Shown here in pieces: positions 1,332 through 31,839 of a stretch of DNA of 32,194 bases (the stretch's first letter is position 1; the number at the start of each line of letters is the position of its first letter). Position numbers and translations under genes: made by a program. The notes below the pieces were generated by a model. The model searched no databases, was not told the DNA's origin, and saw nothing but the letters and a program-made list of their open reading frames with translations. This DNA is from a virus. The stretch is from the IMG/VR virus record IMGVR_UViG_3300025592_000044, positions 1 to 32,194 of that record; one strand, given 5' to 3'.

Positions 1332-1769
1332 TTAATCTACTTCAACCAACTCAATGTCAAAGTTCAAGTCCATCCCCGACAGGGGGTGATTAAAATCAAC
1401 CAGTACCATCTCTTCGGCAACATCGTTAATCACACCTCGGACGGGATGACCGTTGTTGTTACCCTCCACCATGACCCCAGGTTGGAACGGAAAGTCGACA
1501 GGAAACAACGTCTTTGGAACCTCTTGGACCGCATTTGGGTTTCTTACACCATATGCACTCTCTGTTGGGACTTTAATTGTCTTCTTTTGTCCCACCTTCA
1601 TACCAGCCACGGCGGAATCGAACCCTGGAATCATCTCCCCTGCGCCAACTGTGAAGCCGATGGCCTCGCCGCGCTTGTATGAGTTATCAAATTCTTTACC
1701 ATCGTCCAAGGTACCCTTGTAGTGCACCTTTACACTGCGACCTTCTTTAGCGATCGTCTTCTTTCCCAT
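1332..1769 (-). CDS. SlyD-like FKBP-type peptidyl-prolyl cis-trans isomerase
   Basis: Catalyses cis-trans isomerisation of X-Pro bonds and, in SlyD relatives, acts as a folding chaperone. The FKBP half shows YKGTLDDGKEFD (17-28), MIPGFDSAVAGMK (46-58) and SAYG (71-74). An insert-in-flap region follows, then the strand with DFNHPLSGMDL (125-135), which is the SlyD-type hallmark. At 145 residues it has the catalytic and flap domains but lacks the His/Cys-rich nickel-binding tail of E. coli SlyD. An AGAGGAG ribosome site precedes it. A prolyl isomerase is uncommon in phages; it may help fold virion proteins alongside the chaperonin genes in this window. Confidence 0.92.
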   Translation of the reverse strand: MGKKTIAKEGRSVKVHYKGTLDDGKEFDNSYKRGEAIGFTVGAGEMIPGFDSAVAGMKVGQKKTIKVPTESAYGVRNPNAVQEVPKTLFPVDFPFQPGVMVEGNNNGHPVRGVINDVAEEMVLVDFNHPLSGMDLNFDIELVEVD

Positions 1770-12001: not shown

Positions 12002-13573
12002 TTAAGTCTCTAAGACGGCGAAGTTTGTTGTGATCAAGACTCCCGCTACTGACGCAGCGTTCTGTAATGCACATCTGGTCACCTTGGCGGGGTCAATAAT
12101 TCCCGCCTCGAAAAAATCAACCAACTCTCCAGTCGCAAAGTTCATACCAATTTTGGGATCGTTTATGCTTTCTAATCTCTCCAAAACCATAATTGGATCA
12201 AGTCCAGAGTTTTCGGACATCTTTACAATCGGAGCTAAGATTGCACTCTTGACTATGCCAACACCCATCTTTTGTTCTTCGTTGTCGGTCTCAACTTCTA
12301 ACTCTCTGGCAATCGAAAATAATGTTATGCCCCCACCTGGGACTACCCCTTCAAGCTGGGCAGACCGAACTGCTTCTAGGGCATCCTCGATACGGTGTTT
12401 CTTCTCAATCATTTCGACTTCAGTGTGGGCACCTACATTGATTACAGCGATGCCTGATGCTAGGCGGGTTATTCTCTCTTGGATGCGCTGACACTCATCG
12501 ATCGATTCTTCTTGCTTGATATCTTCTTTCAAATTCTCAATCCGCTCGTCCACTTTGCTAGCGGTGCCGTGACCGCCAACGATTGTGGTGTACCCAAGGC
12601 CAATCTCAATGGAGTGGGCGCTGCCGAAGTCAACAAGAGAAGGCGACGAAAGATCGTCACCCTCGGATTTTCTGAAATATTTCGCACCTGTCGCGAGAGA
12701 TAGGTCGCTCATAATATTTCGCCTAGTCTCCCCGTACCTAGGTGCCTTGATCGCAGCCACTTTCATAGAACCGCGAATCGTGTTCATTATCAAAGCGGCG
12801 AGGGCTTGTCCTTCAATTTCGTCCGCGACAATAATGAATGGCCTGCCTTCTCTAGCTGCGGTCTCAAGTGATGGTAAGATTTGCTCTACTCGCTCAAGTT
12901 TAGAATCCGTTATCAAAAAAACCGGGTCTTCATAGCTTGCAACCTTCCTTCTTTCGTCTGTCACAAAAGCGCCGGCGGCATAGCCAGAATCGAATCTAAA
13001 ACCCTCAACAAGGTCCAGGGTCGTGTCAACAGACTTAGCCTCCTTGATCGTGATCGAACCGTTCTTTCCAACCTTGTCCACAGCCTCCGAGATCAACTCC
13101 CCGATAGTACTGTCATTGTTTGCTGAAAGGGACGCAATGTGAGCAATGTCAGCTTTACTGCTGATTGGTCTAGAGAGGTCCGCAAGTTTACCCACCACGG
13201 CTGCGACAGCTTTATCGATACCTCTTTTAAGCTCTGTGGCGTTAACCCTGTGGTCAAGCGCCTCGTCTGCAGAAAGAAATATCGCGCCAGCCAGTATGGT
13301 TGATGTGGTTGTGCCGTCCCCAGCCTCAATGTTGGTCCTTGCTGATGCCTCTTTTACGATCTGCGCAGCGACATCCATTACTGGGTCTTCCAAGTCCACG
13401 AACCTAGCGACGGTCACGCCGTCCTTGGTAATGAATGGCTTTTTACCCTTCTCCCTTATAATTACATTTCTACCCTTCGGGCCCAGGGTAGAACCGACGT
13501 TCTCTGATAGAATCTTGATGCCCTCTGATAATTTAGATCTTAACTCGCCTTCTGAACAGAAGTGTTTAGACAT
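12002..13573 (-). CDS. groEL: GroEL-type chaperonin (Cpn60)
   Basis: A complete 523-residue chaperonin that folds proteins in an ATP-driven double-ring cavity. Seen: TLGPKGRN (29-36), DGVTVA (51-56), GDGTTT (85-90), APRYGETRR (277-285), GAHTEVEMIEKKHRIEDALE (381-400) and GGG (413-415). D51, D86, D397 and D494 align with the catalytic and nucleotide-binding Asp residues of E. coli GroEL (D52, D87, D398, D495). The C-terminal GGM-repeat tail of bacterial GroEL is absent. It is far diverged from host-type GroEL and has no adjacent groES; a GroES-like gene lies 16 kb away. A TTGACA promoter precedes it. Phage GroELs are known from only a limited set of phages. Confidence 0.97.
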   Translation of the reverse strand: MSKHFCSEGELRSKLSEGIKILSENVGSTLGPKGRNVIIREKGKKPFITKDGVTVARFVDLEDPVMDVAAQIVKEASARTNIEAGDGTTTSTILAGAIFLSADEALDHRVNATELKRGIDKAVAAVVGKLADLSRPISSKADIAHIASLSANNDSTIGELISEAVDKVGKNGSITIKEAKSVDTTLDLVEGFRFDSGYAAGAFVTDERRKVASYEDPVFLITDSKLERVEQILPSLETAAREGRPFIIVADEIEGQALAALIMNTIRGSMKVAAIKAPRYGETRRNIMSDLSLATGAKYFRKSEGDDLSSPSLVDFGSAHSIEIGLGYTTIVGGHGTASKVDERIENLKEDIKQEESIDECQRIQERITRLASGIAVINVGAHTEVEMIEKKHRIEDALEAVRSAQLEGVVPGGGITLFSIARELEVETDNEEQKMGVGIVKSAILAPIVKMSENSGLDPIMVLERLESINDPKIGMNFATGELVDFFEAGIIDPAKVTRCALQNAASVAGVLITTNFAVLET

Positions 13574-13602: not shown

Positions 13603-13630
13603 AATATAATGTATCTTATCTTATTGTCAA
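13603..13630 (-). promoter_or_regulatory. Sigma-70-type promoter for groEL
   Basis: Minus strand TTGACA (13625-13630) is followed by TATATT (13603-13608, spacing 16) or TATTAT (13601-13606, spacing 18). The RNA would start near 13596, leaving a short leader with a GAGGT site before ATG 13573. No CIRCE-type inverted repeat or heat-shock sigma-32 site is visible. Confidence 0.75.
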
Positions 13631-14556
13631 GAGTCTTGTTGAATCTTTTCTGCTGCACGACTGGTGGCATCCGCCTTGTCTTTGGTTTTAGCAGCTTTTT
13701 CCTTGGTTCTATCGTCGTGGCCATAGGCCAACTGATCTGCTGAGTTTACCAGGTCTCTAAGCTGCGTAAACAGTTGCTTGAACCTAGTATCCAGTAGTTC
13801 AAATATCTGCTTGGTGCGCGGAACAACCGAGCCCAACTCCAGTTCATAACTCGGCGTCGAAGAAACGGACGTCAAAGGAACAGAAAATCTTTCCGATTGA
13901 TTCGAAGGAGTCGGAGTTACGAACCCAGACTCCTTCCAACTTTGAGCTACTTCGAGGTTGACATCGAACTCATAAAAGCTAATTTTCTTCCCAGGATATT
14001 TTTGAGCTACGATATATTTTACATTAGGGTTTCTCAAGAGGTTCGTATAAGACCCCACTATCTTAGACCCTGGTTTTATGAACTTGACGGAGACTCCTTG
14101 TGATCCAAATTTTATGTCAACAACGTCCTTTGAAACACCTGAGTCTATTACTTCTCCGTCGAACAGTCTTGCTAGAAATTGCTCAAATGTGTAGCCTCTG
14201 GAAGAGGCTCTTGTTGCGCTCTCTGGGCCTAGGATGTTGTAAATTGTTCTAAGGATCTCTGCCCTTGATACAGCTTCAGTGGTTGAGGAAGGCTCCTCTA
14301 AGATGAATTGATTCATTTTCTGTACGAAGCTTCTAAGGTTCTGTATCGATCCAGGATTGATGTTCTGTACCGCCAACTCAAATCTTTTTAAACTTCTAGG
14401 TTTTAGTGCGTCAGAACTCAAAGTCATCCAGTTCGGATCAAAGACTATCGGCTCGTAGACTATAGAGTTCTGTTCGTCGCTCTCGTTAACTTCACTAGGG
14501 TGATTCAGAGCCTCCCTTATCAAACCCGACAACATCTCAATATAATCACTAGACAT
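13627..14556 (-). CDS. Possible PD-(D/E)XK-fold protein with head-targeting-like N-terminus
   Basis: A 309-residue protein. Residues 121-159 read GYTFEQFLARLF, then DVVD (144-147), then VSVKF (155-159), followed by a KYIVAQKYPGKKISFYEFDV region. An E-helix, an Asp strand and an SxK strand are the order of PD-(D/E)XK nucleases (E125, D144 or D147, S156/K158), though the canonical ExK is replaced. The first 26 residues form an amphipathic helix with IRE-A and VNE-S sites like T4 prohead cleavage points. The C-terminus is Lys/Ala-rich and helical. Nuclease activity is only a possibility. Confidence 0.55.
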   Translation of the reverse strand: MSSDYIEMLSGLIREALNHPSEVNESDEQNSIVYEPIVFDPNWMTLSSDALKPRSLKRFELAVQNINPGSIQNLRSFVQKMNQFILEEPSSTTEAVSRAEILRTIYNILGPESATRASSRGYTFEQFLARLFDGEVIDSGVSKDVVDIKFGSQGVSVKFIKPGSKIVGSYTNLLRNPNVKYIVAQKYPGKKISFYEFDVNLEVAQSWKESGFVTPTPSNQSERFSVPLTSVSSTPSYELELGSVVPRTKQIFELLDTRFKQLFTQLRDLVNSADQLAYGHDDRTKEKAAKTKDKADATSRAAEKIQQDS

Positions 14557-14586: not shown

Positions 14587-15252
14587 TCAAATAATCTCAT
14601 CTGCAATGCCAAATTCAACTGCCTGTTCTGCTGATAAGTAAACATCCACCTGCCGACGAATCATCTTTTTTAATCTTTTAACAGTCAAGTTTGTTTCTGC
14701 GGCAAGGCAAGAGATATACTTCTCTTGAATCCACTTAATCTCTTCGATCTCGTTCTCCATCGTAGTCAGGGTGCCGCCAAAGCCGCCAGCTACGCCGTGG
14801 ATCATGACCCTGCAGTTTGCGCCAATCTTTCGCTTACCCTTGGTTCCTGCGGCCAGTAAGAGCACACCTGCGGACATTACCTTGCCCATACCAATCGTGT
14901 TGATGTCGCAAACCTCTTTAGTCATTCTCATCGTATCGTAAACCGAAAACATATCCGTTGCCGAGCCGCCAAACGTAGAAATAACCAAAGAGACGGGCTT
15001 TGAGATTCCGATCACTTCAGAGTCTGGGTTGTCAGGGTCCTTAAGTTCGTACGTAACAGCAGTGTCCTTGAAGTAAAATAAAGCCGAGACAGCCTCCGCA
15101 CAAACCTTCTCAGTAATATCTGAATAAAGGTTGATCGTTCTAATCTCATCTGCTCTGTTGCCGGCGCCGTCTATGTTGTTGACAATGACAATTTGCTTAC
15201 TTAGATCTGTTTCTTTGTCTTTCTTTTTATTTTTTGCGAGTTTTTCTAGCAT
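14587..15252 (-). CDS. ClpP-like serine protease
   Basis: A 221-residue protein of the ClpP/crotonase fold. The Ser nucleophile is S127 in GKVMSAGVLLLAAG, the His is H152 in VMIHGVAGGFGGT, and the Asp is probably D203 in RRQVDVYLSAEQAVEFGIAD; the order and spacing fit ClpP. I chose ATG 15252, with AAGGAG 10 nt upstream; ATG 15273 lacks such a site. The N-terminal 20 residues are Lys-rich. Phage ClpP-like enzymes can either act with host ClpX/ClpA or process head proteins; its place beside a scaffold-like gene and proteins with cleavage-like N-termini favours the second, but does not prove it. Confidence 0.9.
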   Translation of the reverse strand: MLEKLAKNKKKDKETDLSKQIVIVNNIDGAGNRADEIRTINLYSDITEKVCAEAVSALFYFKDTAVTYELKDPDNPDSEVIGISKPVSLVISTFGGSATDMFSVYDTMRMTKEVCDINTIGMGKVMSAGVLLLAAGTKGKRKIGANCRVMIHGVAGGFGGTLTTMENEIEEIKWIQEKYISCLAAETNLTVKRLKKMIRRQVDVYLSAEQAVEFGIADEII

Positions 15253-15532
15253 TGAAAACTTTCTCCTTACCATTCTTTTTAATCTCTACCACTTTACAGT
15301 CCAAGCTTTTTGCAAACTTGTACCAGTCTTCTCTCTCCTTAAAAAGTCTGGAGAAGATTCTAATATAATCTTTTGTCCTGGGCGAGAAGCCCTCTCCTGA
15401 CGGCATCCAATGTGAAGCATCCTTGAAGATCTCATTGACCTCTTTCAAGGTTTTTGATCGCACCTGCACTTTATATGTGTGTTTCGGAGTCGCTTCATCG
15501 AATATTTCCCAAGCTACAACTTCTATAGACAT
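15227..15532 (-). CDS. Hypothetical protein
   Basis: A 101-residue alpha/beta protein starting MSIEVVAWEIFDEATPKHTY with an AGGATTAGGAA site. The N-terminal strands (VEVVAWEIF, YKVQVRSKTL) are followed by helices with SHWMPSGEGFSPRT in between and a very basic end (FNARKTRKK). No family recognised. It overlaps the ClpP-like gene start. Confidence 0.65.
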   Translation of the reverse strand: MSIEVVAWEIFDEATPKHTYKVQVRSKTLKEVNEIFKDASHWMPSGEGFSPRTKDYIRIFSRLFKEREDWYKFAKSLDCKVVEIKKNGKEKVFNARKTRKK

Positions 15533-16784: not shown

Positions 16785-17039
16785 TCAAAAAACTCCTGTT
16801 TTGTTGTCTCGTATCGTCTTAGATAGTTTTTTTAATGCTATCTTTTCTATCTGCCTGACTCTGACAAAGCTCAAACCAACTCGCTTTGCCGTCTCATGCA
16901 AAGTTAACCCCTTCTCGTTATTGTCGTCGATCGTGATCAAGCAGCAATTCAGATCGTCTTCATAGTCTATCCATTTTCTACACTCGCTGTTCTGGCAAGG
17001 CGTGTTTGTTTGTTTGCAGGATTCTGCACATTCTTTCAT
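16785..17039 (-). CDS. Sigma-70 region 4-like HTH protein with Cys-rich N-terminus
   Basis: An 84-residue protein. Residues 44-74 (LTLHETAKRVGLSFVRVRQI, then EKIALKKL) match the -35-binding helix-turn-helix of sigma region 4, including RVRQIE. The N-terminal half has Cys at CAESC, PCQNSEC and LNCC, which could bind zinc. There is no region 2, so it cannot act as a complete sigma factor; it may remodel host RNA polymerase or act as a small activator. Its ATG overlaps the upstream stop (ATGA). Confidence 0.82.
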   Translation of the reverse strand: MKECAESCKQTNTPCQNSECRKWIDYEDDLNCCLITIDDNNEKGLTLHETAKRVGLSFVRVRQIEKIALKKLSKTIRDNKTGVF

Positions 17040-19080: not shown

Positions 19081-19444
19081 TTTGAATCTCCTCTACAACA
19101 ATATCAGACATGCCCTCGTCTCTGCTTAAATTAAAGGCGGTGGCTCTGAGTCCAGGTTTGCCTGGGTCCATATCGTTGATTAAATATCTCGGTCCTCTCT
19201 CAAGTCCCATTATCAATCTATCATATGGCACAGATGTGCCCCACAATTCTTTGATGGTATGATCCCTCAAGTTCTCTGGTCTAGCCGTTGTAAGAACGAT
19301 CATATGACCAGCTTCCTTGATTTCTTGAAGCTTCTCCAGTGAGCCAGGCGTAAGCTCTGGTGATGTACTCTCGTATGTCTCGAACTTACGATACTTGAAG
19401 ATGGTGCCATCGATGTCGCAAAAAATAGTCTTGTATTTCTTCAT
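19067..19444 (-). CDS. HAD-superfamily phosphatase
   Basis: A 125-residue protein with the HAD nucleophile motif FCDIDGTIF (D10, acid/base D12) and motif II VLTTARPE. The terminal acidic motif is reduced to INDMD. There is no clear cap insertion. The substrate cannot be read from sequence; small HAD enzymes in phages may act on nucleotides or polynucleotide 3' ends. TAATG overlap with the upstream gene. Confidence 0.82.
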   Translation of the reverse strand: MKKYKTIFCDIDGTIFKYRKFETYESTSPELTPGSLEKLQEIKEAGHMIVLTTARPENLRDHTIKELWGTSVPYDRLIMGLERGPRYLINDMDPGKPGLRATAFNLSRDEGMSDIVVEEIQNVCW

Positions 19445-19938
19445 TACAGAACCTTCTTTCCATACTTGTTAATCTCTGTGTTTGTGATGTTGGCTGAGAG
19501 GCGCGGGTCCTTCTTGCTAAGAACAGTTGGATACTTCTTTTCCAACTTTGGTAACAAAATATCAAACACTTGTTGTCCTGATAACTGCCAAGATTCTACA
19601 AGCCTTCCGCCCTCGAACCTATTGTAAAAGTGTTCAGGATACTTCGCCAACTTTTCTTCTCTCAAATAGCGTACTTGTTCTTCCCAACTGTTCTGAACCG
19701 ATATACCAGTATACGCACCCTTAACCTTGCCGCTGGTAGTGGATTTGTATTCGACTGGCTGCCCTGCGTCATTGTACGCATCAGCACCTGCAAAGCTCAC
19801 TGCAACGGTGTGGCCAAGCTCAATCGCGGCATATATCTCTTTAGATCTCGCGTAACTAAACGGGTCGCCCCAATCTTGAGTCGCGCAAAGCCTAGCCAAG
19901 CGCTCATATAAGTTTTTGTACTCCTCGGGAGGTGTCAT
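19444..19938 (-). CDS. PD-(D/E)XK nuclease-like protein next to a methyltransferase
   Basis: A 164-residue protein. Residues 40-66 contain a strand with GADAYNDAGQPVEYKST: D53 and E63-x-K65, the D...ExK catalytic signature of restriction-endonuclease folds, preceded by the helix with E34/E40. The C-terminus is basic and ends SANITNTEINKYGKKVL. It has its own consensus sigma-70 promoter, embedded in the end of the methyltransferase gene just upstream. The pairing suggests a restriction-modification-like unit, but no cutting has been shown, and the specificity is unknown. Confidence 0.62.
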   Translation of the reverse strand: MTPPEEYKNLYERLARLCATQDWGDPFSYARSKEIYAAIELGHTVAVSFAGADAYNDAGQPVEYKSTTSGKVKGAYTGISVQNSWEEQVRYLREEKLAKYPEHFYNRFEGGRLVESWQLSGQQVFDILLPKLEKKYPTVLSKKDPRLSANITNTEINKYGKKVL

Positions 19939-19953
19939 ATTCTATCCTTTTTT

Positions 19954-19982
19954 ATTATATTAGTATTTTTTTAATCTGTCAA
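19954..19982 (-). promoter_or_regulatory. Perfect-consensus sigma-70 promoter
   Basis: Minus strand TTGACA (19977-19982), exactly 17 bp, then TATAAT (19954-19959). Both hexamers match the E. coli consensus at all positions. It lies in the last codons and downstream edge of the methyltransferase gene and drives the PD-(D/E)XK-like gene and the nucleotide genes beyond. RNA start near 19947. Confidence 0.88.
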
Positions 19983-25385: not shown

Positions 25386-26142
25386 GCGCTTGCACCAAAA
25401 GAACATCAAGAGATGTCGTTGGAAATTCGACCAAAGAGGACGGTTCATACCTGTCGAGCCCAACCTTTATAACGTCCCTACTGGTGACGTTCAAGTCTAT
25501 CCTGTTTCTAAAGACTTTTCCCGTCTTTTTATCGATTCTATTTACAGTACCCATAATACCATTTTCTTCTAACGCTCTTCTGGTCTTAAATCTACACATA
25601 GTATCAGAAAATTCAAAATCCAACAACTGGCCTTCACTCAGGTATGAAACAACGACTACATCCTTGTGTCTCAAGTCACTATCTAATCTGCCAGACTCGT
25701 AGAGAACAATTCTGTTTACAAAATCGTCTTTAGATCTAATCTCATCGGTTTCAAACTTAACACATTTTTTTAAGTTTATCCAATCAACAACTTTGAGCTT
25801 TTCTTGGCCCTTTTCGATAACTTCGTTTTCAAGATCCAGGCAGTTGTTGTCAAATACATAACATTTTTTGAACAAGATTTTCGCACTGTGGTTTCCACCA
25901 TGGATCACGGTGATAGACTCACCCCTTACCCTCAAGGACTTGACTCTATCGGAGAACGGGATTTTCCCCAAGAGACCGAGTCTGAACATACGCTGGTTCC
26001 ACATCTCAAACCCTTCATCAAAGAAATATGGTGGAGACGAGCCATTATATATCAACGGACAGTCGTTGATCTGTGCGTATAATACCGATCTCAAGCAAGA
26101 TCCGACAACTATTTTATCGACAGACCAAGTTCTTGTAGTCAT
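25378..26142 (-). CDS. Unrecognised protein, partner of the nucleotidyltransferase-like gene
   Basis: A 254-residue protein from ATG 26142 with AGGAA 8 nt upstream (GTG 26160 is weaker). The N-terminus has IVVGSCLRSVLYAQINDCP and IYNGSSPPYFFDEGFE; the remainder is mixed alpha/beta with Cys and many basic residues. The GxC-x loop could be a nucleotide-binding turn, but no family is recognised. It ends inside the start of the nucleotidyltransferase-like gene and its start overlaps the end of the lipoprotein gene. Confidence 0.6.
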   Translation of the reverse strand: MTTRTWSVDKIVVGSCLRSVLYAQINDCPLIYNGSSPPYFFDEGFEMWNQRMFRLGLLGKIPFSDRVKSLRVRGESITVIHGGNHSAKILFKKCYVFDNNCLDLENEVIEKGQEKLKVVDWINLKKCVKFETDEIRSKDDFVNRIVLYESGRLDSDLRHKDVVVVSYLSEGQLLDFEFSDTMCRFKTRRALEENGIMGTVNRIDKKTGKVFRNRIDLNVTSRDVIKVGLDRYEPSSLVEFPTTSLDVLLVQARD

Positions 26143-28204
26143 AGTGTATGTTCCTAGCACTAGCGTGTTGAAATGCGCTTCTTGGCACTGAAGATGTTAC
26201 TTGGTCACCAGGGAGGCAAATCTCGTCTAGAATCGACATAAGATCATTGTACGTTTGGTCGGCATTGGTTGTCAGTGCAAACATTCCTCCGCCGGTCGGT
26301 TGTGTATACCTCGACCATCGGGTCTGGTAGTATGATCCTGTAAAGACATACAGTTTAGTATTTGGGGACGCGGATAAGGCCTCAATCAGCGGTTGTGGGT
26401 CTAGAGTTGGGTCAAGGAATGATTGGTCTTCTTCGTCTGTAAAAACAATTATTATTCTATCTGCGTCTGGTCTCCAGTTGATTCTGAAATCGTGAAGAGT
26501 AGGGATGGAGTCTATCTGGTGAAACCTATCCAACCACGATGCGGCTGCAAGGTCGTAAGGAAGATTCGTGGAGATTGTGCTTACAGACATATACAGAGCG
26601 TCCCTCAACATCTCACTTGTTGTCCCTGGTCCAAACGCTCCGGCAGAAGAGAACGCTGACATAAAGTCTGCAAAGCTTGCGATATCTGTTTCTCTTCTTA
26701 GCCACTCAGTTTGTTGGTGTGCGTGTAGACCTTCTACTGGAAAGATTCTTGGCCCAGTTATGAGACCCCATTTGAGTTTCTGTTCTGCGGAAAACTGACT
26801 GGCGAAGCGGTTCATTGCTGTTTGTGTCGCATTGATGTTGTATTCCATTGAGCCGGACCAGTCGAGAATGAAGAGAATGTCTGTATCTGGAATTGCTTCT
26901 CCGAAGTCCGTAGTTCCATCGCAGTCGTTGTCAGCGCCATCGCATATCTCTCTGCTCGGAACAACCTCTCCAGCGCAGAAATCGATAAGCAAGTCTCCGT
27001 TCGATAGTTCACCAAACCACTGTCCTTCTAGGCAAAGCATCTCGCCAAGTGAACATACGCCGATGCCACCAGTTCCCTCTGGGCCAGAATAACATGACTT
27101 GACAAGCTCTTCGTCAACTAGGTCGTCGCAGTCTTCATCAAAGTTATTGCAAACTTCTGGGTTGACTGGGATTCCCAGGAGCGCGTTGCACCCTTCTGGA
27201 TCATCAGCAGGGACTAGTTCCGGAGGTAACCAAGCGCAGAGTGCAAGGCAATCTGAATACTTTGTAACCGAGCAGTCGTCGTTATCACACTCGCAACTCT
27301 TGAATCCCATACCACAAGACAGCGGGGGTTCCATACAAGGCAATAGAGCACCAATGATTTCTGGCGGGCACTCACATTGAAGACCCTCATCGACGAGGGC
27401 ATCGCAGTCGTTGTCTTGGCCGTCGCAGGCCTCTACCGATGGTTGCCTTGCGGTACAACCTATCCAGCGGCCATCTACACAAACCTCGATACCTCTTTCG
27501 CAAGTGGTGACGCACTCTTGGATGAGTTCTTCGTCGATGTCTCCGTCGCAGTCGTTGTCTAGACCGTCGCAAGTGTCTTGAGGAAGTGGTCCGCAAAGAC
27601 CGCATTCATTTAATTGGTTTTCATCTACCTCGTCATCGCAATCATTGTCGAGACCGTCGCAGATCTCATCTGAAACAATGCAAGTGATGCACTCTCCGTA
27701 GTAGAGTCTACCTTTATCACACTTGACCTCTTGTGTCCCTGGGTCTCCATTGACATCGCAGTCATAGGTCACTGTAAAGTCTTCGTTCGCTCCTGGTGGG
27801 CAATCAAAGGCATGGTTGCAATCGCTTTCATAGATGATTTCTGCTGGTAGGCAAGTGCTGTCAAAGTTCCTGTCGCAAGGAACATGGTCTTCTCCACAAA
27901 TGTCCAAGATAGCATCTTTCGCTAGGATTTCAGTCCCAACTGGTGGGCAGTACCAAATTTGTTGCTGGCAGCATCTCGGAAAGCATGTGCAATAATCAGC
28001 GTCAATGTTCTGGACGTCAGCGCAAGGGTCGACATAAGCGTCAACCGTGATATCTGGGATTTCTATGATTCTTGTGTCTGGAGACAAAAGGTCTACACTT
28101 ATGCCTACCTGGAGGTCTTTTGTCTCACCTTGTTGCGAGACAGTATCAGCGCACGATGCGAGCGCTAACAAGACGCCGATAAAACTTATTGATTTTCTTA
28201 ACAT
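26114..28204 (-). CDS. MopE-repeat and von Willebrand A domain lipoprotein
   Basis: A 696-residue exported protein. A lipoprotein signal ends in LLALASC with lipidated C18. Five MopE-type metal-binding repeats, C-D-G-x-D-N-D-C-D-x3-D-E, occur at 182-195, 212-225, 260-273, 352-365 (CNNFDEDCDDLVDE) and 421-434; many further Cys suggest disulfides. A VWA domain follows (about 440-680) with MIDAS residues DWSGS (448-452), T528 and FTDEED (D590). Such proteins are typical of Myxococcota/Bdellovibrionota-type bacteria, where the repeats bind calcium or copper and VWA binds other proteins. AAAAGG precedes the ATG. It would sit on the host surface. Its presence in a phage is unusual. Confidence 0.88.
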   Translation of the reverse strand: MLRKSISFIGVLLALASCADTVSQQGETKDLQVGISVDLLSPDTRIIEIPDITVDAYVDPCADVQNIDADYCTCFPRCCQQQIWYCPPVGTEILAKDAILDICGEDHVPCDRNFDSTCLPAEIIYESDCNHAFDCPPGANEDFTVTYDCDVNGDPGTQEVKCDKGRLYYGECITCIVSDEICDGLDNDCDDEVDENQLNECGLCGPLPQDTCDGLDNDCDGDIDEELIQECVTTCERGIEVCVDGRWIGCTARQPSVEACDGQDNDCDALVDEGLQCECPPEIIGALLPCMEPPLSCGMGFKSCECDNDDCSVTKYSDCLALCAWLPPELVPADDPEGCNALLGIPVNPEVCNNFDEDCDDLVDEELVKSCYSGPEGTGGIGVCSLGEMLCLEGQWFGELSNGDLLIDFCAGEVVPSREICDGADNDCDGTTDFGEAIPDTDILFILDWSGSMEYNINATQTAMNRFASQFSAEQKLKWGLITGPRIFPVEGLHAHQQTEWLRRETDIASFADFMSAFSSAGAFGPGTTSEMLRDALYMSVSTISTNLPYDLAAASWLDRFHQIDSIPTLHDFRINWRPDADRIIIVFTDEEDQSFLDPTLDPQPLIEALSASPNTKLYVFTGSYYQTRWSRYTQPTGGGMFALTTNADQTYNDLMSILDEICLPGDQVTSSVPRSAFQHASARNIHYDYKNLVCR

Positions 28205-28631
28205 AATATAACCTTTTATAAAAATTTGTGTCTCTCAGACACTTAGAGCCGGCGTTGTAGAAACACAAGCCTTTGTCTGTATTACCTTTTGCATACACTC
28301 TAATATTGTATGAAAGGATTCTTGCACCAACCTTAACGGCTGTCCTGGGGTTCTTCAGTTGCTCGCAGGTGTACTTTATACCGCGTGTCTCCTTGCCTCC
28401 GGTCCACTTTGGAACGACTTGTGTTAGTCCGCATGCGTTAGCATAACTAACCGAACTTGGCCAATAGGCACTCTCAATATATATGAGTGCTGCTAGTAGC
28501 TCTGGTTCTATGTTGTTTTTGGTCGACGATCTCACAATGTCTGCCTCCCATTTGCACAGATTTCTGTGTTGGGTGCTGGACATTGGGAGAGCGATTTGCG
28601 CTGCGAGGCAAAGAGAAAGCAGTGGTAGCAT
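28146..28631 (-). CDS. Exported lytic transglycosylase (SLT family)
   Basis: Cuts the glycan backbone of peptidoglycan to anhydromuropeptides. I chose ATG 28631, with GGAG 5 nt upstream; it starts a signal peptide (MLPLLSLCLAAQIALPMSS). The mature SLT domain has catalytic E53 in LLAALIYIESAYW and the ANACGLTQVVPKWTGG strand-turn typical of family 1 lytic transglycosylases, then ARILSYNIRVYAKG and CFYNAG. A 59-nt overlap with the next gene and TAATG coupling to ThyX bind it into the operon. It differs from the signal-less M15 endolysin and may reach the periplasm by Sec before lysis. Confidence 0.9.
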   Translation of the reverse strand: MLPLLSLCLAAQIALPMSSTQHRNLCKWEADIVRSSTKNNIEPELLAALIYIESAYWPSSVSYANACGLTQVVPKWTGGKETRGIKYTCEQLKNPRTAVKVGARILSYNIRVYAKGNTDKGLCFYNAGSKCLRDTNFYKRLYYVKKINKFYRRLVSARIVR

Positions 28632-29335
28632 TACTTCTCCATTTTGTTTTTGATGAAAGAATGGACGGAATGTGGAAACAAATCCTCTACAATTTCTAGA
28701 CAAGCTTCAGCGACCTGCTGAATCTCCCACTGTGCTCCTGTGTGTGAACGCAAGGCTACGAACTTCAAGAGGTTATGGAGGTTGACTGTCCCATAATACT
28801 GAGTGTATAAATTCTGTGGCAACACCCCCCTTGCTTGTTCTCTGCATATTCCCGATTCAAGCATCTTGTCAAAGAGTTTTATACACTCTTGATGATGTGC
28901 CTTGACTAGGTCTGAAGCATTGGCCGAGACAGGAAAGCCAGCCCTGTTATATTCTACAATTGGGTTTACCAAATCGTCTGTACTGGCCTGCCTGTTGCTC
29001 TCGTGTTGCCGTCTGAACTCTTTAGGTTCATAAAAATTGATATTTACGGAAGTGTATCTCCTAGAAATCTCGTTATAGGCCCAAGTACGGTGTCGATGGT
29101 GCTGGCTACGTATGAAGAGAGGCACTGTAAACCGAAATGTGACAGCACAATGCTCGAAAGGAGAGCTATGATTGTGGTCCATAAGGTAGTTGATGAGCTT
29201 GATATCTTTCTCATCTACTTCTTTTTTTTCTGAGCCAAAAGACACCCTTGCCGCATTAACAACCGAGAGATCTGAACCCATATGTGAAACGTACTCAACC
29301 GCACCTATGTCATCACCGAAGATTTCAATTCTCAT
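28631..29335 (-). CDS. thyX: Flavin-dependent thymidylate synthase
   Basis: Makes dTMP from dUMP using methylene-tetrahydrofolate and FAD/NADPH. The signature RHRTWAYNEISRRY (RHRxxxxNExSxRY) is intact, with HNHSSPFEH upstream and RSHTGAQWEIQ downstream. At 234 residues it is normal length. AGGGG lies 5 nt before ATG. It works with the dUTPase of this window. Its start lies inside the end of the GroES-like gene. Confidence 0.96.
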   Translation of the reverse strand: MRIEIFGDDIGAVEYVSHMGSDLSVVNAARVSFGSEKKEVDEKDIKLINYLMDHNHSSPFEHCAVTFRFTVPLFIRSQHHRHRTWAYNEISRRYTSVNINFYEPKEFRRQHESNRQASTDDLVNPIVEYNRAGFPVSANASDLVKAHHQECIKLFDKMLESGICREQARGVLPQNLYTQYYGTVNLHNLLKFVALRSHTGAQWEIQQVAEACLEIVEDLFPHSVHSFIKNKMEK

Positions 29336-29648
29336 CTAAGCCCCTGTAAATCCCAACAACGTGATTTTCCAAAACAATATACGTCCTTCTATCGCCGATC
29401 TTTATTTCTTGGACCATAGACCCGTCGACAACTATTTTCTTTTGCCTCACTGTTCCGTGCCTGAGCCCCTCGAATTGCTTCGAGCAATCCTCGGACACGT
29501 CAATGACTGTCGCTTCGATGTATCTGCCTTCCTCTGGCCTGTAATCATCCGGTAAGAGTACCCCGGATTCCGTCTCACGTTCCGTAAAGTGCGGCACAAT
29601 AGTAAGATGGCGATTAGTTGGTTTCAGTCGGGGAGGCAAACTACTCAT
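29325..29648 (-). CDS. GroES-like co-chaperonin
   Basis: A 107-residue protein whose order of strands follows Cpn10. LKPTNRHLTIVPHF is the first strand pair, then the mobile-loop region TERETESGVLLPDDY (22-36) with a hydrophobic VLL tripeptide like the GroEL-binding IVL of GroES, then EATVIDVSEDC, and a late strand pair KIGDRRTYIVLENHVVGIYR. A tryptophan-free, glycine-poor middle makes it diverged. I chose ATG 29648 with GGGGG upstream. It is the probable lid for the phage GroEL 16 kb away. Alternatives: unrelated small barrel; the identification is by pattern. Confidence 0.65.
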   Translation of the reverse strand: MSSLPPRLKPTNRHLTIVPHFTERETESGVLLPDDYRPEEGRYIEATVIDVSEDCSKQFEGLRHGTVRQKKIVVDGSMVQEIKIGDRRTYIVLENHVVGIYRGLDEN

Positions 29649-29913
29649 CCGGGCCCCCAAATGTCTTTTTTAGTTGATCAAAATAATCGTTGAACGTCTC
29701 AATGTCGTCTCCCTGCTTGAGCATACGAAAGACTCTTACTGCTGTTCGCATATCGGCCTTTGTGAGCCATTCGTTCTCTGCATAGTTGGCTCTTAAGTCT
29801 TTAAGTTGTTCCTTGTATGGTCTCATTTCTTCCTCTAAGGCCACAAAGGACTTGACAAAGTTGATGACGTGTTCGTCTCTTGTGAGCATATCTTCTTCTC
29901 GATTAAAAGACAT
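29641..29913 (-). CDS. Helical phage protein, first gene of a new transcription unit
   Basis: A 90-residue helical protein from ATG 29913, which has AAAGGAG 5 nt upstream. It has FVKSFVALEEEMRPYKEQLK, DLRANYAENEWLTKADMRTA, then VFRMLKQGDDIE. The coil followed by a helix-turn resembles small DNA-binding helical proteins of the GapR/DUF2312 type only loosely. I recall similar proteins in environmental phages. Function unknown. Confidence 0.7.
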   Translation of the reverse strand: MSFNREEDMLTRDEHVINFVKSFVALEEEMRPYKEQLKDLRANYAENEWLTKADMRTAVRVFRMLKQGDDIETFNDYFDQLKKTFGGPDE

Positions 29914-29942: not shown

Positions 29943-29971
29943 AATATAATATATTATACGACAAAAATCAA
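29943..29971 (-). promoter_or_regulatory. Sigma-70-type promoter for the 29913 gene, GroES-like and thyX
   Basis: Minus strand TTGATT (29966-29971), 17 bp, TATATT (29943-29948). A perfect TATAAT (29953-29958) also lies nearby but without a good -35. It lies directly after the RNR stop codon and would give a short leader with the AAAGGAG site. Confidence 0.6.
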
Positions 29972-29976
29972 GCAAT

Positions 29977-31839
29977 TTATACGAATTTTATTTCACAAGC
30001 GCCGCCGGCGCAGGCGATTTCTCCTGAAAGATTGGTATTATCTTCCTCTTCGGAAACTTTCGTCAGATCTATATTCTTCAGAGATGCCATCATGGCTTCG
30101 TAGGTCTCCTTGGAACAATCCTCAAAGGGAGCCTGTGTATAGGTCCCCCCGTTATAAGGAAGCACGGAAAGACCATTGTAACTGGACCTGTTGTCCCACA
30201 TCCACTCGCCGACATCGACCCACTCCGCATCTTTTATTGATACGGTTGCTGAAACATTATGCGTGTTCTGCCCCTTGCGAAAACCTGGTTTTATCCACTC
30301 GGCAGTTACAGTCTTCACCCTCTTGAGCAGTTGTAATGCCGACTCTGTTCTCATAATAGAGCCCTCTGGGGCCTTTTGGGGAATAGAAATAACAGCGGTA
30401 GTATGAGGGCTAAAGTACTCGTCCTCGACAAGCTCCGGGTGATTGTTCAATAAGTGTGTGTAGATAGGTTCGCTCTTACCTACACGGATTCTGCGAATAT
30501 AGTAGTCATTGTGCCAGGCGTGAATGCCTGAAGACGTGCCGAGGGTCAAGCTTGTAGTTCCTGCTGGCTTTACGCAAGTTGTTCTGGCTGCTGGATTGAT
30601 GCCAACCAACGCTGCGACTCTTGCGTTTTCTTTCCTTACACCGTTGGCTGCTTCCTTCATATCAAGCTCTAAAACAGCACCAGAGGCAATACCAGTCATA
30701 GAAACACCAATAAGTGCGTCTTTTTCTGTTGTTCTACGCCAAATATCACGAAGATAATGGAAGTCGGTGTAGCTGGCTTGCAATGTTCCGATGAAGGTTG
30801 CTGTTCTGACTCTCTCATTAAGATCCTCTTGGGACTCTACGTTGGATACGTTGACTTCTGTAAGGTTGCAGAACTGATATGGGCGCAAACCGATCTCACA
30901 GCAAGGGTTGGTTCCCCAGTCTTTATCGTTTGAAAAATAAAAACCGGGTTCTCCAGCACCTGAAGCCTTCACTCTGTCCCAGAGGTTCATAAAATATTCT
31001 TTATCGATCTTGTGGCGCAACAACACAACAGAGTTGTTAGCTCTACCTCGTTGTGGGCTGGTTTCCCACCAGTTTCCTGTTTTTGCTGCAATCATATCCT
31101 CGTCATCTGCTGAAAACAAGGAAATAAGCGCTGCTCTCCTAATGCCACCTGCAAGAACTGCGTCTGCGATGTGGCAAATCATATCATGAACTTCGATTGT
31201 AGAAAGTTTATCTCCGTTCTCGCAATTTGAGAGGATGCCTTCTAACTTGACCAGACACTCTTTAAGAGGTTGTGGTCCTGGGGCCTTACCACCTGAAGTG
31301 ATTAGTGCCGCTCCCTTTGGTCGGATATCCGTAAAATCGAAACGAAGGTGTGAGCCACCCTGAAAATAAGAGCGAACAAGGGCTTTCACCGCGTCGGCCC
31401 ATCCCTCGATGGAGTCGTTAACTAGGAAACGTCGCGTCCTGTTCATATTTGGTCGTGTAACCTCTGGCAATTTCTCTACATGATGCTTTTGGACTGAGTA
31501 TCCGACACCCGTGCCCCCAAGAAGAAGAAACATTACTTCTCCGAAGCAGCGCCAATCATCAGCAGGCATAAAGGCACAGTTGAAAATGCGGTTGGGGGCC
31601 ACTTCGATTGGTTTGCCGCCGAATTGCATTGACCTCATCGAAGGTAAAACTTTTCTATCGAAGACCATTTTGTAAGCCTTGACGATTTGAAGTTCCAGTT
31701 CGGGAAACTTTTTTAGATGCATGTTCATATTGCGCGTTACTAGTTCGTCCCACGTTTCTCTTCTTTGTTTACTTTCCAAGTATCTTGCGTACTTCATATG
31801 TACTGTGATTTCTGATAATATCTGATTTGACAATTCCAT
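29977..31839 (-). CDS. Class II (adenosylcobalamin-dependent) ribonucleotide reductase
   Basis: Reduces ribonucleoside triphosphates to deoxy forms using a B12-derived radical. Seen: GGTGVGYS (107-114), SGGKAPGPQPLKE (178-190), NPCCEIGL with the catalytic Cys and CNLTEVNVS, a PAGTTSLTLGTSSGIHAW motif, and a C-terminal redox pair C610-x4-C615 (CAGGAC) equivalent to the tail Cys pair of Lactobacillus RTPR. At 620 residues it is a short, monomeric-type enzyme lacking the long ATP-cone. It needs cobalamin from the host or environment. TAATG overlap with the helicase gene. No cobalamin riboswitch is visible. Confidence 0.94.
   Translation of the reverse strand: MELSNQILSEITVHMKYARYLESKQRRETWDELVTRNMNMHLKKFPELELQIVKAYKMVFDRKVLPSMRSMQFGGKPIEVAPNRIFNCAFMPADDWRCFGEVMFLLLGGTGVGYSVQKHHVEKLPEVTRPNMNRTRRFLVNDSIEGWADAVKALVRSYFQGGSHLRFDFTDIRPKGAALITSGGKAPGPQPLKECLVKLEGILSNCENGDKLSTIEVHDMICHIADAVLAGGIRRAALISLFSADDEDMIAAKTGNWWETSPQRGRANNSVVLLRHKIDKEYFMNLWDRVKASGAGEPGFYFSNDKDWGTNPCCEIGLRPYQFCNLTEVNVSNVESQEDLNERVRTATFIGTLQASYTDFHYLRDIWRRTTEKDALIGVSMTGIASGAVLELDMKEAANGVRKENARVAALVGINPAARTTCVKPAGTTSLTLGTSSGIHAWHNDYYIRRIRVGKSEPIYTHLLNNHPELVEDEYFSPHTTAVISIPQKAPEGSIMRTESALQLLKRVKTVTAEWIKPGFRKGQNTHNVSATVSIKDAEWVDVGEWMWDNRSSYNGLSVLPYNGGTYTQAPFEDCSKETYEAMMASLKNIDLTKVSEEEDNTNLSGEIACAGGACEIKFV

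Follow-up and report, generated by a model that had tools for sequence, protein, structure and literature searches.

Does a small open reading frame in the nucleotide-metabolism region of a viral genome fragment encode a GroES lid, and if so, which GroEL barrel would it close? The DNA in question, the window, is the whole 32,194-nt stretch of IMG/VR record IMGVR_UViG_3300025592_000044, and its source is a marine virus of bacteria that carries both a GroEL barrel and a GroES lid. An earlier note, made from the letters alone, had pointed to a GroES-like protein with a VLL loop and to a groEL gene 16 kb away. Both features were confirmed: the 107-residue reading frame occupies positions 29325–29648 on the minus strand (ATG at 29648, stop at 29325–29327), carries the loop TERETESGVLLPDDY with VLL at residues 30–32, and is separated by a gap of 15.75 kb from groEL at 12002–13573, likewise on the minus strand.

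Sequence comparisons placed the protein in the Cpn10 family. Cpn10 (PF00166) was its sole Pfam match even at E ≤ 10 (E = 5.6e-4), and the similarity is domain-wide, covering profile positions 2–90 of 93; taken alone, the protein scores 20.3 bits, 0.8 bits short of the curated Pfam cut-off of 21.1. PHROG 3188 ('co-chaperonin GroES') matches residues 8–100 with E = 2.9e-7, and this reading frame is the one Cpn10 match in the entire viral record, a 32-kb fragment. Homologues at 24–60% identity are present as intact reading frames in many phage contigs. When the 58 aligned family members were compared with Pfam singly, 38 matched Cpn10 at E ≤ 1e-3 (best 6.4e-9) and none matched any other Pfam family. 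A search of PDB sequences with the window protein by itself gave GroES 8wuc as the top match at E = 0.52, which is not significant. A profile of 10 members placed GroES chains first (E = 0.0075), with the amyloid precursor protein among the weak matches, and a profile of all 58 members found chloroplast Cpn11 (7ekq_P) at E = 4.3e-6, followed by Cpn20 and GroES chains. The assignment is firm once these relatives are added to the single-sequence evidence: the window protein is a true but divergent phage GroES (Cpn10). Assignment of another fold by a profile search had been named beforehand as the outcome that would speak against this identity; the profile searches returned GroES/Cpn10. In tblastn against cultured phage records, neither the window protein nor a relative from among the most divergent ones gave more than chance-level matches. 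No cellular relative was confirmed in an alignment-based scan of ∼85,000 bacterial and archaeal species genomes, and a recent host origin of groES was therefore not found.

The fold was predicted with AlphaFold2 as a single chain, from 10 sequences (model 1, pLDDT 75, pTM 0.62) and from 58 sequences (model 2, pLDDT 79, pTM 0.66), so that the pTM is moderate in both cases (0.62–0.66). Both models share the strand order of Cpn10 (E14–20, E43–51, E71–75, E80–84, E87–93 and E97–100), in agreement with what the earlier note had read from the translation. Foldseek searches of the PDB put Cpn10 and gp31 structures at the top: Cpn10-family chains, T4 gp31 among them, filled the first 32 matches for model 1 and all of the top 35 for model 2 (best E = 5.2e-5, gp31 entry 1g31 included). 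In VIA-align the Cpn10 rows reached Z scores of 8.4 to 6.6 while anything else scored 5.4 or lower, the next unrelated rows being GroES-like domains of quinone oxidoreductases; among the BFVD viral models, phage GroES accounted for nearly all named matches. These models of moderate confidence point to a Cpn10 beta-barrel, with TM-scores of ∼0.5–0.6 that are probably limited by the loop. The segment around VKVGDIV of bacterial GroES is unrecognisable in the window protein, where a short helical segment takes its place; the roof of the phage lid may therefore differ from that of bacterial GroES.

The predicted GroEL-binding core of the loop, GVLLPDDY (residues 29–36, encoded at 29541–29564 on the minus strand), was assigned from low model confidence and family conservation. 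AlphaFold2 confidence drops at about residues 21–40 in both models, at the location of the GroES mobile loop, and these residues are probably mobile. A hydrophobic tripeptide follows Ser-Gly in 58 of 58 family members (VLL in 32, ILL in 11, IVL in 5 and others in 10), and Pro33, directly after the tripeptide, is invariant in the same 58. A probably mobile loop with a hydrophobic tripeptide, as expected of a member of the Cpn10/GroES family, is thus present.

The groEL gene of the window encodes a 523-aa group I chaperonin (Pfam Cpn60_TCP1, E = 2.7e-68; PHROG 5725, E = 3.4e-140) with 43% identity to E. coli GroEL and a C-terminus from which the GGM tail is absent. The positions considered below for ATPase, groove and inter-ring contacts were chosen as the functional positions of GroEL. 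By residue mapping, the equivalents of D52, D87 and D398 and the glycine motifs are kept, so that a GroEL partner with intact ATPase residues is encoded in the same genome. In the apical groove F204, L234, L237, E238, A241, L259 and N265 are identical to E. coli; V263I and V264M are conservative changes, and Y203A is not conserved. Five related phage GroELs agree with the window protein at the mapped ATPase and groove positions, and Y199 is Y in the window GroEL and F in two of the five. The inter-ring contacts are poorly kept (R452 to V, E461 to D, S463 to I), and single-ring behaviour of the phage GroEL is therefore possible, as far as these substitutions can suggest. In a 190-kb relative (contig G009, near L010) a second GroEL-like fragment was seen just downstream of groEL (34070–34282, profile positions 466–533, in a 153-aa frame), possibly a partial duplication.

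Contigs were gathered from 31 groEL-homologue loci and 80 groES-homologue loci (the best 80 of 218) and then searched for both genes. In 35 of the 35 contigs with both, among them the window itself and record G002, identical in both proteins, the two genes share a strand and groES lies 12.3–20.9 kb (median 15.9 kb) upstream of groEL; the sample represents one broad phage lineage and contains near-duplicate contigs, and the independent number is therefore smaller than 35. All 15 contigs with groES only end 0.9–14.4 kb downstream of it, before or near the expected start of groEL. Three apparent groEL-only phages were rejected as a sensitivity artefact: the PHROG GroES model had missed groES in these contigs and a family profile built from the alignment found it in 3/3. 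An adjacent pair in one operon, of the E. coli groSL type, is not what the window contains, as the genes are 15.75 kb apart and have separate promoter-like sites. Adjacency of groES and groEL is usual in bacteria and is no requirement for a group I chaperonin system. The lineage keeps the lid and barrel genes apart as a stable trait, and the split is not an accident of a single genome. The split chaperonin pair suggested by the earlier note is supported by this linkage and by a GroEL that retains its ATPase residues and the greater part of the GroES-binding groove.

The gene order around the pair is largely kept: ribonucleotide reductase, small ORF, groES, thyX, MopE-like gene, two ORFs, DNA polymerase III alpha, dUTPase, GuaB, sigma region 4, ClpP-like gene, groEL and small ORF. 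The small conserved ORF directly upstream of groES (29641–29913, minus strand), to which no function was assigned, shares 8 nt with the start of groES and precedes it in most related loci. Downstream, the start of thyX (flavin-dependent thymidylate synthase, 28631–29335, minus strand; Pfam Thy1, E = 3.3e-51) overlaps the groES end by 11 nt, and thyX usually follows groES immediately in closer relatives; overlaps with both neighbours amount to a tight packing like that of a phage operon. A syntenic, class II-like ribonucleotide reductase with a B12-dependent insertion domain lies upstream of the groES unit (29977–31839, minus strand; PHROG 367, E = 5e-133; Pfam RNR-II_ins_dom). The gene of a ClpP-like protease (14587–15273, minus strand; Pfam CLP_protease, E = 2.9e-33; PHROG head maturation protease) is found upstream of groEL here and in most relatives, and its product may be a prohead protease or a proteostasis partner.

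Several other genes of the window deserve mention. Between the ClpP-like gene and groEL lies a 309-aa ORF (13627–14556, minus strand) without a Pfam or PHROG match, which has counterparts at 24–28% identity in some relatives. A possible phage transcription switch is an 84-aa protein (16785–17039, minus strand) that carries a sigma-70 region 4 domain (Pfam E = 1.6e-8) and is encoded between GuaB and ClpP in many relatives. A second folding helper is encoded at 1332–1769 (minus strand), an FKBP-type peptidyl-prolyl isomerase (Pfam FKBP_C, E = 5.8e-25) with homologues in several related contigs. At 26114–28204 (minus strand), a gene that stays near groES in most relatives encodes a protein of 696 aa that is predicted to be secreted and has a VWA domain as well as metal-binding motifs of the MopE type. 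The MopE-type motif is more typical of deltaproteobacteria-like bacteria and is a possible hint at the host.

Promoter-like sites were found in front of both chaperonin genes. A sigma-70-like promoter, TTGACA-16-TATATT, matches the consensus at 11 of 12 positions just upstream of groEL (13603–13630, minus strand); of 18 related loci, 17 have a site with at least 10 of 12 matches (most with 12/12) at 47–67 nt in front of groEL, compared to 6% of random 130-base stretches. Before the orf-groES-thyX unit there is a weak promoter-like site, TTGATT-17-TATATT (9/12; 29943–29971, minus strand). Across the 17 loci inspected, an equivalent site with 9 to 11 of 12 matches precedes the small ORF, 322–373 nt upstream of groES, and is usually stronger than the 9/12 of the window. 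Given these separate sites, groES and groEL look like separate transcription units and, judged by consensus matches, are probably transcribed as such by a host-type RNA polymerase. Elsewhere in the window a perfect sigma-70 consensus (12/12, spacer 17) at 19954–19982 (minus strand) precedes a 164-aa ORF at 19444–19938.

Taking together the computed homology, the predicted fold, the conserved loop, the ATPase and mostly conserved groove residues of the partner and the conserved linkage, we consider it very probable that the protein is a divergent phage GroES that would serve as the seven-subunit lid of the phage's own GroEL and close its chamber for folding. Seven subunits would assemble into the lid, and their mobile loops would enter the groove between the apical helices H and I of the phage GroEL, and not only of the host's, with the tripeptide VLL. 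The lid would close the chamber during the ATP cycle and phage proteins, as the presumed substrates, would fold inside. Expression of groES would belong to the nucleotide-metabolism unit, which follows the ribonucleotide reductase, and groEL, with the gene of the ClpP-like protease upstream, would be read from the sigma-70-like promoter in front of it. Against this explanation stand the Pfam score below the cut-off, an identity of 19% to E. coli GroES, the altered roof segment and the moderate pTM. A wider version, which does not contradict it, has the phage GroES binding both phage and host GroEL rings, thereby raising the total folding capacity during infection. The residues of the loop tripeptide are of the same kind as bacterial IVL and the groove residues are largely common to E. 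coli and phage GroEL; we regard this extension as possible, if doubtful.

Alternatively, the protein could act like T4 gp31 and retune the host GroEL, leaving the phage GroEL to work alone or with host GroES. This idea can draw on the structural match to gp31 (Z 8.0, 89 residues, 2.9 Å) and on the chaperonins of phages EL, OBP and AR9, phage-encoded GroEL orthologues like that of the window, which reportedly function without a co-chaperonin (PMC9598537). However, the linkage at similar spacing on one strand in every contig with both genes and the mostly kept groove for the GroES loop in the phage GroEL argue against it, and the EL chaperonin is far more divergent, with 22% identity to GroEL (PMC7185714) versus 43% for the window protein. 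We therefore judge a gp31-like use improbable. It is extremely unlikely that we are looking at another small beta-barrel, such as an accessory to ThyX or ribonucleotide reductase or a relic related to the GroES-like domain found in medium-chain dehydrogenases. Such a role would fit an operon shared with nucleotide-metabolism genes, and dehydrogenase GroES-like domains do occur lower in the fold list, at Z 5.4 or less. Yet there was no dehydrogenase profile match, the top fold matches are all true Cpn10, the loop and its tripeptide are kept throughout the family, and groEL was found in those searched groES-bearing contigs that are long enough to show it. A dehydrogenase GroES-like domain was rejected as the identity of the protein on the profile results and the fold ranking. 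Returning to a lid for the phage's own GroEL, one may speculate that selection has uncoupled the two genes. In such a case the lid would be produced along with the enzymes of nucleotide synthesis, and a strong promoter of its own, located after the ClpP-like gene, would drive the barrel gene. The ratio or timing of lid to barrel would then shift during infection, and the lid might pair only with the phage barrel; we consider this scenario rather unlikely.

How does the pair compare with known systems? The likeness to T4 gp31 drawn in the earlier note holds for the fold, a Cpn10 barrel with a mobile loop, at 8% identity in the structural alignment. It does not extend to the strategy: T4 has no GroEL and its gp31 works with that of the host, whereas the window phage has its own groEL, and phages with both genes are the closer precedents. 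With E. coli GroES the window protein shares full-length homology, the strand order and the tripeptide context (GG-IVL versus SG-VLL) but differs in sequence, in the roof segment and in an N-terminal extension of ∼5 residues. According to PMC7185714, which cites Marine et al. 2017 (ISME J, doi 10.1038/ismej.2017.102), a study of virioplankton chaperonins, for phages with GroEL and GroES homologues, many phages carry only GroES, some both and few only GroEL. In the Southern Ocean, the majority of viruses are reported to carry one or more analogues of the GroEL/GroES complex (PMC8407431). Among cultured phages, Flavobacterium phage immuto has annotated groES and groEL genes that are adjacent, in contrast to the split pair of the window; in Vibrio phage Va1 they are annotated 7.4 kb apart, in Vibrio phage Pv27 they are ORF14 and ORF24 (PMC12063606), and in Vibrio phage 1.244.A a GroES-like gene in the replication region lies ∼76 kb from groEL. 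Novelty is limited, because annotated pairs, some adjacent and some split, already exist in cultured phages. Immuto, Va1 and Pv27 belong to other lineages, and their GroES proteins are not detectably similar to the window protein by tblastn; the window lineage differs from them in keeping groES in a nucleotide-metabolism unit 12–21 kb upstream of groEL. This placement and the lineage-wide fixed split seem to be what is new here, and may already be contained in Marine et al. 2017. The pair adds a widespread family of large phages from the environment to those with a complete chaperonin system of their own. Being compact and intact, and having diverged sufficiently, it would lend itself well to asking if a phage chaperonin depends on its own lid.
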